Origin: Bacteroidota bacterium
Lineage (GTDB): Bacteria; Bacteroidota; Bacteroidia; UBA7662; CANHCV01
NCBI GenBank assembly: GCA_947501265.1
Contig: CANMVY010000011.1
Span: forward strand, 1 to 64,000
Length of the DNA stretch: 64,000 bases
Reading direction: 5' to 3'
Under the pieces are notes generated by a model, which was given only the letters and a program-made list of their open reading frames with translations, was not told the origin of the DNA and did no database searches. How positions within the stretch are numbered: position 1 is the first letter of the stretch; each line of letters starts with the position of its first letter. Position numbers and translations under genes: made by a program. Shown here piece by piece: positions 3,645-60,900 of this stretch.

Positions 3645-6080
3645 TTATTTAGCTACGTTGATCTTAGAAACTTGAGTAGTTCCGTTAGCAGAAACTTTCA
3701 CCAAGTACATTCCGTTTTGCAAGAAGTTAGCGTTTACTGACTCAACATTGCTGTTGAAGTTCTTAGCATAAACAACCTTACCTGTCAAATCCAAAATCTC
3801 CAAAGAACCTTCAGTAGCAGTAGAGAAACGAACTTCAAACTGACCGTTAGATGGGTTAGGATAGATAGCTACTGACAAATCGTTCATGTTACGACAAGCA
3901 GCAGTGTTTACAGAAATAGTTCCTGGCTGAGATGTACCACAAGTAGAAGTGAATACGTTAACACCAATTTTACCAGCTACGAAAGCACCGTTGTTGGTAA
4001 TAACCGCAGAGTTGTTTGTTTGGCTAACCAAAGTCAAACCAGCTGGCAAGTTGAAACGGTAACGAGTAGCACCAGCAACAACAGGCACAGTGTAAGTCTC
4101 TTGGTCTCCAGGACAGATACTAGCAGATCCAGTTACAGCTGGCTTTTCCAACAAAGAAATAGTGATGGTCTTAGATGGTGTATTTCCACAGTTAGAAACA
4201 CCAGCAACAGAGATAGTACCTCCAGAGAAACCAGCAGCGAAGTTTACATCGATAGATGTTGTTCCCTGACCAGAAACGATAGTAGCACCAGCAGGAGCAG
4301 TCCAAAGGTAAGAATTAGCACCAGCAATAGCGTTGATAGTATAAGTAGCGTTAGTAGCAGTTCCACGAATTCCGCAAACACCTAAAGTAGATGCAGTGAA
4401 TACTGGAGTTGTTGTTGGAGCAATAGCACGGATAGAGTAGCTACGAGTAGCGTTAGAGCAGAAGTTAGAAACGTTACAAGTAACAGTGCGATTAGCAGCA
4501 CCAGGAGCGAAAATAACATTTACCATTGGAGAACCTTGTCCAGAAACGATGGTTCCACCAGGAATAGACCAAGTGTAGGTAGAGATGTTGTTAACCAAAG
4601 GCATAGTGAAAGTTACGGTATCAGTACCACCGAAAGCTTGACACCAGTTGGTAGTAGCAGTAGAAACTGCAGCACCTGTTACAGAAGCAGTAACACAATT
4701 GGTTTTTCCAGAAATGTAGTTGCTAGAACCAGCATCAGAAACAGAGAAAGTAGATCCGTAGTTCAAGATAGAACCAGCAGCTGGGCGATAATCAGGATTA
4801 GTGAAATCGTAAGGATTAGTCATCAAGCTAAGGTTAGCTTTGATGGTATCATTACGGCTTCCTAAGTAAGCCAAAGAATTGAAGGTAGAACCTGAAGCAA
4901 CTTCACCAACACGAGTTTTGTAGTTAGAAATTACGTTTCCAGAAACCAAAGCAGATGAATCAACGCGGTTAGCTGTGATGTTGTTGGTAACAGCAGAACC
5001 ATCTAACATTACACCAGTAGCCCAATCAGACCAAACTGTATTCAAAATACGAACACCAGTGTTACGACGGATACGAGCTCCACGACGGAAAGCTGGGTGA
5101 ATTGTGCTGTTGTTATTTCCACGGAAAGGACCAATCAAAGTAACGTTAGAGAATGTTCCAAGTGTACGAGGCATAGCAGTAGTTCCGTTAGCATCGTTAT
5201 CACACTCAAAACCTTCAGAAGTAGAAGCACCAGAAGGCAAAGTATAAGAGTTGTCACCAATTGCAGGATCTTTTACAGAAAGAGCAAACTGAACATTTCC
5301 TCTCCATCCGAAATCGGCATCAAAATCGTCGTCCAAGCAACGGTAAGCAACCAAATACTTACAGTTTACAGTTCCACCGAACCACTCGAAAGCATCGTCG
5401 TTGATGAAAGAACACTGAACGTACTCGATTGTAGTTCCGCTACCTACTCCACCCATGGTCAAACCATTGATTTCACGGTTTTGAGCGAATACATATCCAC
5501 CGAATTCGATACGAACATAACGCAAAGAACCAGAGTTATCAGCATCGTTCGATCCACCAAATTTGTGTTTAGCATCATCAGCCAAACCTTCGATGTTAGA
5601 AGAACCTTGGTTTGAAACAGCATTACCCAAAATCATAATTCCACCCCAGTCACCAAGACCACGAGCACCAACCGCTTTATCAGAAGTGAAAACGATAGGA
5701 TTTTGAGCAGTTCCATTTGCTACCAATTTACCACCTTTACGAACCAAGATAGAAGAGTTAGCAACAGAAGAGTTACCACGTAAAACTGTTCCAGCAGGAA
5801 TAGTCAAAGTAACGTTAGAATCAATGTAAACGACTCCAGAAATTGAATAAACGGTAGAAGCGTTCAAAGTTGTGTTTGTGGTGATGTTTCCAGAAAGCGT
5901 AGCAGTTGGAGTACCATAAACAGCATTTTGAGGATCCCAGTTGGTCCAACCTGCAGTCCAAGGAGTAGCTGGAGCTGGAGCGAAAGCCCCGCGGTATCCA
6001 ACCGGAGTAAAGAAGTTTTGCGCGTTCGCCATCATCCCGAAGGCAAACATAAGCGCCGATAAAAACGTAAGTTTTTTCAT
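3645..6080 (-). CDS. T9SS-secreted protein: beta-helix-like domain, PKD-like repeats, sorting tail
   Basis: An 811-residue secreted protein. The signal peptide (MKKLTFLSALMFAFGMMANA) is followed by a long segment, roughly residues 60-440, rich in parallel-beta-helix-like turns (GVVYIDSNVTLTIPAGTVL, LGDWGGIMILG, YVRIEFGG). Three PKD-like modules of about 90 residues follow (each with a YTWSIPGG / YLWTAPAG / YRFNLPAG strand and a VSGQG-type strand). The last 81 residues form a type A T9SS sorting domain (AIYPNPSNGQFEV ... LDLTGKVVY ... NGMYLVKV). The protein should cross the inner membrane by Sec and the outer membrane by T9SS, ending on the cell surface or in the medium. It has its own promoter and terminator. 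Ligand or substrate unknown. Confidence 0.9.
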   Translation of the reverse strand: MKKLTFLSALMFAFGMMANAQNFFTPVGYRGAFAPAPATPWTAGWTNWDPQNAVYGTPTATLSGNITTNTTLNASTVYSISGVVYIDSNVTLTIPAGTVLRGNSSVANSSILVRKGGKLVANGTAQNPIVFTSDKAVGARGLGDWGGIMILGNAVSNQGSSNIEGLADDAKHKFGGSNDADNSGSLRYVRIEFGGYVFAQNREINGLTMGGVGSGTTIEYVQCSFINDDAFEWFGGTVNCKYLVAYRCLDDDFDADFGWRGNVQFALSVKDPAIGDNSYTLPSGASTSEGFECDNDANGTTAMPRTLGTFSNVTLIGPFRGNNNSTIHPAFRRGARIRRNTGVRILNTVWSDWATGVMLDGSAVTNNITANRVDSSALVSGNVISNYKTRVGEVASGSTFNSLAYLGSRNDTIKANLSLMTNPYDFTNPDYRPAAGSILNYGSTFSVSDAGSSNYISGKTNCVTASVTGAAVSTATTNWCQAFGGTDTVTFTMPLVNNISTYTWSIPGGTIVSGQGSPMVNVIFAPGAANRTVTCNVSNFCSNATRSYSIRAIAPTTTPVFTASTLGVCGIRGTATNATYTINAIAGANSYLWTAPAGATIVSGQGTTSIDVNFAAGFSGGTISVAGVSNCGNTPSKTITISLLEKPAVTGSASICPGDQETYTVPVVAGATRYRFNLPAGLTLVSQTNNSAVITNNGAFVAGKIGVNVFTSTCGTSQPGTISVNTAACRNMNDLSVAIYPNPSNGQFEVRFSTATEGSLEILDLTGKVVYAKNFNSNVESVNANFLQNGMYLVKVSANGTTQVSKINVAK

Positions 6081-56964: not shown

Positions 56965-58122
56965 ATGCCTTCGTACCAAAGTATCATTTATTCGAAGTTG
57001 CCAAGAGTTGGTGAAAGCATTTTTTCGGAAATGAGCCAATTGGCGTTGAAGCACAATGCGCTGAATGTTTCTCAGGGCTTTCCCGATTTTCCGGTTGATC
57101 CATCTCTCATTTCCTTGGTTCATGAAAAAATGAAACAGGGACACAATCAATACGCTCCCAGTTATGGGTTGCCTTTGTTGCGGGAGAAAATTGCCCAAAA
57201 AATTTGGAATACCACCGGGATCGAATACCATCCAGAAACAGAAATTACCATTACATCTGGGGCTACTCAAGGACTTTACACCGCCATCAGCGCTTTTGTT
57301 CGAGAAGACGATGAAGCCTTGATTTTTGAACCCGCCTACGACAGTTATGTTCCGGCCATCAAGGCAAACGGAGGACTCGCGGTGTATGCTGAATTGGAAC
57401 CCGACACCTTTACGTACGATTGGACCAAGATTAAACGAGCGATTACGCAGCAAACGAAAGTCATCATCCTGAACACGCCCCATAATCCAACCGGAAATTT
57501 ATTGACGGAACACGATTTGGAGCGCTTGGAAAATTTGGTTGATGGTAGTGATATTATCATTATTTCGGATGAGGTGTACGAACACATGACGTTCGATGGC
57601 CGAAAACACGTGAGCCCCACTTCTCGTCCAAAGCTCGCCGAACGCACCGTCGTGGTATCTTCCTTCGGGAAGGTTTGGCACAACACCGGATGGAAGGTGG
57701 GCTATGTATATGGCCCTGCAGAGTTAATTCGTGAGATCCGAAAACTGCATCAGTTTTTAGTTTTTTCCGTGGTTACTCCCATCCAGCACGCCTATGCCGA
57801 ATACATCGATCGGGAGGATACCTATTTAGAATTATCAGATTTTTACCAAAAGAAGCGCGATTTCTTTTTATCTCTCATGGAGGGGAGCCGATTTTCGTTC
57901 CGTCCATCTGAGGGGTCGTTTTTTCAATTGCTGAATTACGAAGGCATTTCAGATTTACCGGATGAGGATTTCGTGAAGGATTTGGTGAAATTAAACGGCA
58001 TAGCAACCATTCCGTTGAGTCCGTTTTATCATTTGAAAACCAAAGGGAAAAACATTCGTGTTTGCTTCGCAAAGAGCGACGAAACCTTGGAAAAAGCAGC
58101 TGAAATTTTATGCAAGATTTAA
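56965..58122 (+). CDS. PLP-dependent aminotransferase, methionine/glutamine (YbdL/KAT) type
   Basis: A 385-residue fold type I aminotransferase. Marks: ALNVSQGFPDFPVDP, ITSGATQGLYTAISAFV, ILNTPHNPTGN, IIISDEVYEHMTFDG, and the PLP-Lys motif VVSSFGKVWHNTGWKVGYVYGP near residue 232. The pattern fits the YbdL/kynurenine-glutamine transaminase K group, which prefers methionine, glutamine and aromatic amino acids. The next gene, an omega-amidase overlapping by 13 bp, supports a glutamine transaminase role (glutaminase II pathway) or methionine salvage. Confidence 0.87.
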   Translation: MPSYQSIIYSKLPRVGESIFSEMSQLALKHNALNVSQGFPDFPVDPSLISLVHEKMKQGHNQYAPSYGLPLLREKIAQKIWNTTGIEYHPETEITITSGATQGLYTAISAFVREDDEALIFEPAYDSYVPAIKANGGLAVYAELEPDTFTYDWTKIKRAITQQTKVIILNTPHNPTGNLLTEHDLERLENLVDGSDIIIISDEVYEHMTFDGRKHVSPTSRPKLAERTVVVSSFGKVWHNTGWKVGYVYGPAELIREIRKLHQFLVFSVVTPIQHAYAEYIDREDTYLELSDFYQKKRDFFLSLMEGSRFSFRPSEGSFFQLLNYEGISDLPDEDFVKDLVKLNGIATIPLSPFYHLKTKGKNIRVCFAKSDETLEKAAEILCKI

Positions 58123-58880
58123 CGGTTAGTTTGGTTCAGTTGGATATCTTTTGGGAGAATCCGGAACGAAACATCCAACACATTAACAGTCTCCTAGAGC
58201 GCCAAGCCTTGGGCGAAGTGGTGATTCTTCCCGAAATGTTTGGGTCGGGGTTTTCCATGAATGTGGAGAAAGTTGCCCAACCCATGAGTGGAACTTTGCT
58301 GCAGGCTTTGCGCGGTTGGGCCTTCGATCATCAAAAGCTATTTATGGGCACCATCGCCGTATTGGAAAAAGGGGTGGCGACCAATCGATTGTTTGCCGCT
58401 TTCCCCGATGGAAAATTGCAATGGTACGACAAGCGGCATTTGTTTGCGATGGCGAAGGAGGACCAATTTTACACCGCGGGAAAAGAGCGATTGATCATTG
58501 ACTATTTGGGTTGGAAAATTTGCCCACTGATTTGTTATGATTTAAGGTTCCCCGTTTTTTCCAGAAATACCGATGCGTATGATTTGTTGATTTACGTGGC
58601 GAATTGGCCGGGCAAACGCATTTCGGCTTGGGATGCGCTTTTAACCGCCCGGGCGATCGAAAATCAATGCTACGTGGTGGCCGTAAATCGGGTAGGAGTT
58701 GACGGGAACGGCTGGGAATTTCCGGGGCATTCCCAAATCATCAACCCCTTGGGTGAGAGGATTCTTATGGCCCAGCCCAAGGAAGAAATCGTTCTTGGTA
58801 AAATTTCGGCACAATTGTTGAAAAGCACCCGCGAAAGTTTGCCCTTTCTCCAAGACCGTGATAACTTTGAACTAAAATAA
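58110..58880 (+). CDS. Omega-amidase (nitrilase family, YafV type)
   Basis: A 256-residue carbon-nitrogen hydrolase with the catalytic Glu-Lys-Cys: Glu in VVILPEMFGSGFSM (about residue 41), Lys in WYDKRHLFAMA and Cys in LICYDLRFPVF. The FGSGFSM and DLRFP segments are those of omega-amidases, which hydrolyse 2-oxoglutaramate or 2-oxosuccinamate left after glutamine or asparagine transamination. It overlaps the aminotransferase gene, forming a two-step module. Confidence 0.87.
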   Translation: MQDLTVSLVQLDIFWENPERNIQHINSLLERQALGEVVILPEMFGSGFSMNVEKVAQPMSGTLLQALRGWAFDHQKLFMGTIAVLEKGVATNRLFAAFPDGKLQWYDKRHLFAMAKEDQFYTAGKERLIIDYLGWKICPLICYDLRFPVFSRNTDAYDLLIYVANWPGKRISAWDALLTARAIENQCYVVAVNRVGVDGNGWEFPGHSQIINPLGERILMAQPKEEIVLGKISAQLLKSTRESLPFLQDRDNFELK

Positions 58881-58892
58881 AAACTCTAATAC

Positions 58893-60164
58893 ATGAAAAA
58901 AATCTTTACCACAGTTGCAATCGCTTTATCGGTGATGGCTGCTGTTGCCCAGGATGTTGATCGCAAAGAAATTAAATTCGATTACATTCGCCTTCCGATG
59001 AAACCTTTGGTGAAAGGAACTACCCGCAACGCCCAAGGTGAAATCATTCCCGATTATTTGAAAAAAATTGAAGAGCAAAAAGCAGCTTTTCAGCGCAAAA
59101 AAGACGAAGCCGAGCAAAAGTATTTGATGGACATGGCGCTTTATCAAGACGAAGTAAAGCGGGAAGACGATCGTTACCAAAAAGAGGTGGATGCTTACAA
59201 CAAGAAAACAACGGCTCAAAAAATCATCGATAAGCAATTGTTGGAACAAGGCAAGCCGTTGAAAAAAACCATTTATCCGCCGTCCAAACAATCGGTTGTT
59301 GAAGAAAGAACAGGAAAAGTGTTCAACCACGAAGCGCTAGCTGCAGAATACCTACGCCCAGAGGGCTACTCCTCTAACCGCGACAATGCGGTGATGATTT
59401 CGGTGACTTTGTTGGGCTTTGAAAGCACGGTAGAATTCAAGACAACGACCAAAAATACCATGGTTAAACAATCCAACGGCACCTTCACCAGCGTTCCAAC
59501 CACTACCTATTTCTATGAGTTGAAGTACCGTCATCCCATGCGTTTGAAAGTAGTAAGTCCTACCTTAGGCGTGGTTTCAGATGATTTGATGTTCAACGAC
59601 GACCGCACCACCAAGAGTGCTGAGTATAAATCAGACTACGAAGCTCGCAATGCTTACAACAGTCAAAAAGATGCGATCCTTTCCAAAGCGGAAGATCAAG
59701 TGGTTAACGAAAATTTGGCAAGCATCCGTACCCAATTGAACAACCAACACGGATACGCTAAAACCAATCGCGCAGCTGATTTGTACGATGTTACTTCCAA
59801 GAAACAAGATTATTCCAGCATCAACAAGGCGTATGAATCGGCGTTTGAAGGATTGATGTTGTTGTACGAAAGTGCTAACCCAACGCGTGCAAAAGAGAAA
59901 CTTGCCGCTGCAACGGCGATGTGGGAGAAGGATTTATCCGAATCAAACATCAAGGATAAAAAATCAAGAGTTAATGCTGATGTTACCTTGGCCTTGTTGT
60001 TCAATATTGCTGAAGCAAACATTTGGTTGGGCAACTTCAACCGTGCAGAAGAGTGTTTGAATAAGTTGAATTTGATGGATTTGAACAAAAAAGAGCGCGG
60101 TCGTTTGGAAGAAGAGCGTTCGTTTTTTAAAGACATGAAAGAGCGCGCAAACGCCAATGCATAA
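58893..60164 (+). CDS. Secreted protein with coiled coil and TPR-like tail, unknown function
   Basis: A 423-residue protein with a signal peptide (MKKIFTTVAIALSVMAAVAQ). Residues 50-115 are a highly charged predicted coiled coil (YLKKIEEQKAAFQRKKDEAEQKY ... REDDRYQKEVDAYNKK). A beta-rich middle (AVMISVTLLGFESTVEFKTT) and a helical C-terminal part follow (ADVTLALLFNIAEANIWLGNFNRAEECLNKL), which reads like a TPR. I do not recognise the family. It overlaps the DUF3108 gene by 8 bp and follows the omega-amidase by 12 bp. Confidence 0.75.
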   Translation: MKKIFTTVAIALSVMAAVAQDVDRKEIKFDYIRLPMKPLVKGTTRNAQGEIIPDYLKKIEEQKAAFQRKKDEAEQKYLMDMALYQDEVKREDDRYQKEVDAYNKKTTAQKIIDKQLLEQGKPLKKTIYPPSKQSVVEERTGKVFNHEALAAEYLRPEGYSSNRDNAVMISVTLLGFESTVEFKTTTKNTMVKQSNGTFTSVPTTTYFYELKYRHPMRLKVVSPTLGVVSDDLMFNDDRTTKSAEYKSDYEARNAYNSQKDAILSKAEDQVVNENLASIRTQLNNQHGYAKTNRAADLYDVTSKKQDYSSINKAYESAFEGLMLLYESANPTRAKEKLAAATAMWEKDLSESNIKDKKSRVNADVTLALLFNIAEANIWLGNFNRAEECLNKLNLMDLNKKERGRLEEERSFFKDMKERANANA

Positions 60165-60900
60165 ACTCATTTTCCTATTTGGAATGATGATCGCGATAGG
60201 GGGAGGAGACTCCCCCTATCCTTTTTCGTTAGGTGAACGAATCTCGTATTTGGTGGATTACCAAGCAGGATTTTCTTGGCCCGATGCGGGCAAAGTTACG
60301 TTTTCCATTGATTCGGGAACTTACCAAGGAAAAGCGTGTTTCCGATTTAGTGGAATTGGAAGTTCCATGGCTTGGTACGATTGGTTTTATCCAGTTCGGG
60401 ATCAATATTACTCCTGGGCCGATTTAAAAACGTTGCAGCCTTACTGTTTCCAGCGCATCGTTAACGAAGGATCGCATCATTACAAGCAAACGGCTTGGTT
60501 CCATTTTGATGAAGGGTATGCAAACATCGAAACGGAGGAAAAGGGCACAAAAACGAAGACGAAGGTGAAGATTTCGGCTAACGCTACCGATCCGCTTGCG
60601 GGCATTTACCACTGCCGAAACATCGATTGGAAATCGAAAAAACCCGGATTTTCCTTTGTACTTCCCTTACTTCTGGAAGATTCGGTTTATGCCTCTACGG
60701 TTCGTTTCGAAGGAAAAGTGAATCTAACCGTGAATGGAAAAACGGTTCCTTGCTTTAAAATCCGCCCGGCACTGATCGAAGGGTCGTTGTTCAAAGGTGG
60801 AACAGAAATGTCGGTTTACCTCAGAGAAACCGATTTGATTCCTATTCGGGTGGAAGCTCCGATTGTGGTTGGAAAGGTGGTTGCACGGTTGAAAAGGTGA
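60157..60900 (+). CDS. DUF3108 family periplasmic protein
   Basis: A 247-residue exported protein (short hydrophobic start MHKLIFLFGMMIAIG) with the DUF3108 pattern: PFSLGERISYLVDYQAGFSWPDAGKVTFSI, then YDWFYPVRDQYYSWADLKTLQPYCFQRIVNEG and CRNIDWKSKKPGFSFVLPLL, and late TDLIPIRVEAP. These beta-rich proteins are thought to act in the periplasm or envelope; no activity is known. Its first 20 codons contain a perfect 11-bp stem-loop with T-run (60195-60227). Confidence 0.83.
   Translation: MHKLIFLFGMMIAIGGGDSPYPFSLGERISYLVDYQAGFSWPDAGKVTFSIDSGTYQGKACFRFSGIGSSMAWYDWFYPVRDQYYSWADLKTLQPYCFQRIVNEGSHHYKQTAWFHFDEGYANIETEEKGTKTKTKVKISANATDPLAGIYHCRNIDWKSKKPGFSFVLPLLLEDSVYASTVRFEGKVNLTVNGKTVPCFKIRPALIEGSLFKGGTEMSVYLRETDLIPIRVEAPIVVGKVVARLKR
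60195..60227 (+). terminator. Terminator-like hairpin inside the DUF3108 start region
   Basis: GATAGGGGGAG-GAGA-CTCCCCCTATC is an 11-bp perfect stem with a GNRA-type tetraloop, followed by CTTTTTCG. It resembles a rho-independent terminator but lies inside the gene (codons for about residues 13-22), so it may act as an attenuator or an RNA-processing site. Confidence 0.6.

Follow-up and report, generated by a model that had tools for sequence, protein, structure and literature searches.

A conserved, terminator-like hairpin of a highly expressed gene within the signal-peptide codons of its downstream neighbour

The combined sequence evidence from one gene junction in a Bacteroidota bacterium suggests that the terminator of one gene can be written into the first codons of the next. 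In the window, the 64,000-nt stretch of DNA analysed here, a hairpin with a T-rich tail follows the end of a gene for a secreted coiled-coil protein and lies inside the coding sequence of a downstream DUF3108 gene. This hairpin is probably the intrinsic (Rho-independent) terminator of the coiled-coil gene, and probably leaky enough to allow weak expression downstream. A first-pass annotation had proposed both an upstream-gene terminator inside the downstream coding sequence and its control by translation. Good support for the former comes from the location of the hairpin, its codons, its conservation, the way terminators are used in this genome, terminators behind homologs, a second case and a contrast in expression; the latter is weighed below among the alternatives.

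The gene probably served by the terminator (58893-60164, plus strand) encodes a 423-residue secreted coiled-coil protein of no Pfam or NCBIfam family. The DUF3108 gene (60157-60900, plus strand; PF11306, E 2.9e-34) has its start codon 5' of the hairpin and opens with the signal peptide MHKLIFLFGMMIAIGGGDSPYPF. The 8-bp overlap between the two, described in the first pass, is seen at 60157-60164 (plus strand) as ATGCATAA, with the ATG overlapping the TAA; in the congener G001, the overlap reads ATGGGTAA. The stem begins 30 nt past the upstream stop. Its arms, 60195-60205 and 60210-60220 (GATAGGGGGAG and CTCCCCCTATC), form 11 perfect pairs, 7 of them G-C, around a GAGA loop (60206-60209) that fits GNRA and has a G-C closing pair. 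On the plus strand, the hairpin (60195-60220) spans codons 13-22 of 247 in DUF3108 (..IGGGDSPY..) and the U-rich tail CTTTTTC (60221-60227) follows at once, so that the perfect stem, loop and tail annotated at 60195-60227 are all present. The T-tract directly 3' of the stem, CTTTTTCG, is modest, with 5 T in 8 and bounded by C on both sides. At its base the stem reads GATA/TATC, whereas most terminators of the same genome have an A/T-rich base. The RNA 3' end is expected in or near the U-rich tail, at ~60224-60228.

The hairpin core has an energy of -21.5 kcal/mol (-21 to -23 for the stem), the fourth most stable among the 115 terminator-like sites counted in 864 kb of this genome. Against shuffled sequences, the fold has z = -3.3 for 81 nt and -4.4 for 121 nt; the hairpin is kept in the 121-nt prediction, and that fold contains no competing anti-terminator structure. 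In an Rfam covariance-model search the hairpin was unmatched, the only match being a sub-threshold one to snR13 elsewhere.

The codons that form the stem are not those that the protein sequence alone would favour. When the same twelve residues were recoded with codon usage taken from the window, 0 of 200,000 synonymous versions had a stem of at least 11 bp; the longest, 10 bp, arose twice. The native codons include rare ones (ATA, 6%; GGG, 12%; GAC, 22%). The same region is conserved in the genus, as judged by comparison of the window species with two congeners whose DUF3108 proteins are 94% and 90% identical. All 33 nt of 60195-60227 are identical in the three species, and the codons on both flanks vary. 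Codons 14-23 are identical at 10 of 10 positions; with the synonymous rates of DUF3108 itself as reference, p = 4.7e-4, and no other run in that gene is as strong. A lack of stem conservation had been named beforehand among the results that would refute the proposal, and the stem was found intact. The stem bases are the same in all three species, a sample too small and uniform to reveal compensatory changes. Relatives of DUF3108 elsewhere in the order are just 25-29% identical and have different N-termini. A dispersed repeat or REP-like element was ruled out as an origin of the block, which has one exact copy in each of the three genus genomes.

Another run in the alignment bears on how far conservation can be taken. 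Codons 322-337 of the coiled-coil gene contain a 52-nt run (59854-59905) that is invariant in the three species, with synonymous conservation stronger than that of the hairpin block. This run is without stable RNA structure (z = +0.84) and without the TANNTTTG promoter element. Because this longer conserved run has no hairpin, conservation is not by itself decisive for the hairpin.

The genome has a clear habit of ending genes with hairpins of this kind. Across 864 kb, in which 91% of bases are coding, 115 hairpin-plus-T sites were found: 89 intergenic, 15 sense-coding and 11 antisense. A first-order Markov control predicts ~17 per 864 kb. For terminator-like stems of at least 11 bp, the corresponding numbers are 61 found, nearly all of them intergenic, and ~0.5 expected. 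The intergenic sites begin a median of 20.5 nt after the stop codon (75th percentile, 26; 95th, 166). The DUF3108 hairpin combines what an intrinsic terminator is recognised by: a stable G+C-rich stem; a short loop; an adjoining U-tract; a position just after a stop; and selection at the nucleotide level in three species. A separate coding site, a 13-bp perfect stem with a T-rich tail at L042:14329-14359, lies deep in a 938-residue ORF (codon ~800) and could be an internal terminator or chance.

A sample of 295 genomes of the class contained homologs of the coiled-coil protein in 27. Readable 3' ends were available for 20 distant homologs, and in 8 of these, by a count made by eye, the stop is followed within ~60 nt by a canonical terminator (L051, L052, L055, L056, L059, L060, L065 and L066). 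At none of the loci examined is DUF3108 next to a distant coiled-coil homolog. In two related species, a hairpin with a T-tail, AATGCCGT-TTTACCG-ACGGCATT, sits inside the downstream ORF, ~189 nt (L058) and ~53 nt (L061) past the stop of the coiled-coil homolog.

Codon adaptation, referenced to the ribosomal-protein operon and computed for 313 sampled genes, places the coiled-coil gene at the 89.5th percentile, as compared to the 7th for DUF3108 and 3.2 for the CN_hydrolase gene that precedes the unit (58110-58880, plus strand; PF00795, E 2.4e-32). The highest value of all 313 genes (0.82, above ribosomal proteins) belongs to an 811-residue secreted protein encoded at 3645-6080 on the minus strand of the window, which is likely to be very abundant and exported. 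A Bacteroidota-type promoter match, TTTG-N20-TAACTTTG, occupies 58838-58869 (plus strand), within the final codons of CN_hydrolase. Taken alone this is weak, as the window holds 9 matches to the pattern against 4.2 expected; the site sits within 58826-58881, a 56-nt segment that is the longest invariant run of the three-species alignment. This promoter-like site likely drives the coiled-coil gene. It thus appears that the coding sequences on either side of the highly expressed gene contain its signals, the promoter in the preceding gene and the terminator in the following one.

A scan for embedded terminators covered the window and 60 further stretches (1.264 Mb, ~54% of the genome). It returned 82 terminators lying no more than 80 nt past the end of a long ORF. 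Just 2 of them lie behind the ATG of the next gene without a likely later start. The second, at L075:4416-4437 (contig C1, ~124416-124437), falls where an lptC-like lipoprotein gene (PF06835, E 9.1e-13) encodes its signal peptide. There, a gene for an FKBP-type isomerase (PF00254) ends at 4393 and the lptC-like gene starts at 4397. The hairpin begins ~20 nt past that start and has a 9-bp stem, AAAGCGGAA-TTTA-TTCCGCTTT-TTTATTG, coded in MFLKTYQSGIYSAFLLFILGC. A 33-nt block is identical in the three species and its flanks are variable; the fold has z = -2.7. A conserved TTG 3' of the hairpin is unlikely as a start, because the signal peptide would shrink to MFILGC. In two relatives from the order, lptC has a different preceding gene and a different N-terminus. 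As suggested by these two cases, in both of which the downstream gene product is exported, a signal peptide may be tolerant of odd codons. Four further candidates were set aside as mis-called starts: L025:8765, L043:8531 and L087:1615, each with an in-frame ATG right after the hairpin, and L027:5563, with a plausible GTG at codon 21.

Several other explanations make the hairpin something other than an embedded terminator. If the DUF3108 gene began 3' of the hairpin, the terminator would be ordinary and intergenic, much as at L025, L043 and L087, where apparent embedding looks like mis-calling. Here, however, no in-frame ATG occurs before codon 71, and the first GTG/TTG codons, at 32-33, lie inside the domain and beyond its conserved F..GE motif; the reading frame and the hydrophobic start of the signal peptide, coded 5' of the hairpin, are retained in three species. 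A mis-called start is very unlikely on these grounds, and the annotated frame indicates that the DUF3108 start is upstream of the hairpin. The same F..GE motif, conserved across the family and placed directly after the hairpin residues, might suggest that the protein needs GGGDSPYPF and that the hairpin is incidental, whether through protein constraint or chance. GGGDSPY is nevertheless absent from the other family members compared, and the codon choice is far from random, with synonymous sites frozen. Protein constraint is largely refuted by this, with next to no probability left to it; as far as recoding and alignment can tell, the hairpin is neither chance nor protein constraint. A 26-bp near-perfect palindrome kept in three species would also suit a DNA-level operator for a dyad-binding transcription factor. 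Such an operator is highly improbable: within 2 mismatches over the inner 14 specified bases, its own genome holds no second copy, and the T-tail, the distance from the stop and the unrelated hairpin-plus-T at lptC are all unpredicted by it.

Two alternatives keep the RNA hairpin and change what it does. It could shield the upstream mRNA 3' end, or be cut by RNase III, without ending transcription, and a stem as stable as this one would serve well in either role. The U-tract that adjoins the stem, invariant in three species, and a spacing from the stop close to that of other terminators argue instead for termination, and a role in stability or processing alone seems unlikely. Terminator hairpins often stabilise mRNA too, and such a role would be compatible with termination. 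The remaining alternative is the translation-controlled read-through of the first-pass annotation, in which ribosomes reinitiating at 60157 would reach the 5' arm and block the hairpin, the polymerase would continue, and translation of DUF3108 would control its own transcription. This would require a ribosome at the 5' arm before the polymerase clears the T-tract, and the geometry permits it: the DUF3108 start overlaps the upstream stop, and 38 nt separate the A of the start codon from the beginning of the hairpin, which is further than an initiating ribosome extends and within reach of an elongating one. The lptC junction has the same layout. Fixed leakage accounts for the data equally well, however; the hairpin would be free to fold while a ribosome paused at the stop/start; and the 121-nt fold offers no anti-terminator as competitor. 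Translational control of read-through is accordingly a possibility that we hold only tentatively, and this part of the first-pass proposal does not share the standing of the terminator itself.

The preferred reading, an intrinsic terminator with leakage, assigns the following roles. The 33 nt would be dual-coded, encoding the final part of the signal peptide of DUF3108 as well as a stem-loop with its U-tract. RNA polymerase from a promoter before 58893 would yield mostly a short mRNA ending at ~60225. DUF3108 would be made solely from the read-through fraction, since its coding sequence itself contains the terminator and the full DUF3108 mRNA must cross it whatever its promoter. We infer termination, its efficiency and read-through as the DUF3108 source from sequence. 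The arrangement would let a strongly and a weakly expressed gene adjoin tightly without an intergenic region. As a by-product, termination would yield an mRNA that includes the start of DUF3108 and ~22 of its codons but no stop, and some ribosome rescue is therefore expected. This cost is also an argument against an embedded terminator: terminators in coding sequence yield nonstop mRNA and should be selected against.

Intragenic terminators and leaky terminators are both already known. Leaky intergenic terminators set operon expression ratios, with downstream expression arising as read-through of a strong upstream unit. Those elements lie between genes; the DUF3108 element lies in the signal-peptide codons of the downstream gene. 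Attenuation of the trp type offers a likeness in that the position of translation could decide whether the hairpin ends transcription. It differs in that the DUF3108 junction has no leader ORF and no competing anti-terminator, the translated ORF being the structural gene. Intragenic terminators are found in arfA of E. coli and brfA of B. subtilis, and brfA termination is lost upon synonymous changes (PMC8012679). The DUF3108 case resembles these in having a hairpin of intrinsic-terminator type within coding sequence, from which the truncated RNA would be a nonstop mRNA. In arfA and brfA, by contrast, a gene for a ribosome-rescue factor carries the hairpin close to its own 3' end and is autoregulated by it; the DUF3108 hairpin occupies opening codons and would serve the gene before, which places it outside the arfA/brfA type. 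RNA 3' ends internal to ORFs are described as common in E. coli (PMC7815308) and B. burgdorferi (PMC10319736), some scoring as intrinsic terminators (aceK int); in the available portions of both sources, these are premature ends or sRNAs of the same gene and not a conserved terminator of the preceding one. In the literature covered, which was partial, no description was found of a terminator coded in the signal peptide of the next gene. As far as this partial coverage indicates, what is new is a conserved terminator that shares its bases with the signal-peptide coding region of the following gene, an arrangement that occurs twice in one genome.

These junctions may belong to a broader class, defined by a highly expressed gene whose terminator lies where the next gene, coding for a weakly expressed exported protein, specifies its signal peptide. 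In such a class, translation of the signal peptide would set read-through, and the dosage of the export protein would be governed by a race between ribosome and polymerase. This generalisation is speculative and rather improbable in its full form. Annotation rules usually assume that terminators are intergenic and treat a strong hairpin-plus-T in coding sequence as noise. The genome analysed here has two conserved cases, which suggest that the terminator of one gene can double as a stretch of signal-peptide codons in its neighbour, with downstream synthesis then dependent on read-through. In one of the two the downstream gene is lptC, which is likely to be needed for assembly of the outer membrane. 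In one study that sorts phyla into coupled and runaway, Bacteroidota are not listed among the runaway ones (PMC13323073). The junctions would provide short natural tests of ribosome-polymerase coupling in Bacteroidota, and they suggest how tightly packed genes may reach very different expression.
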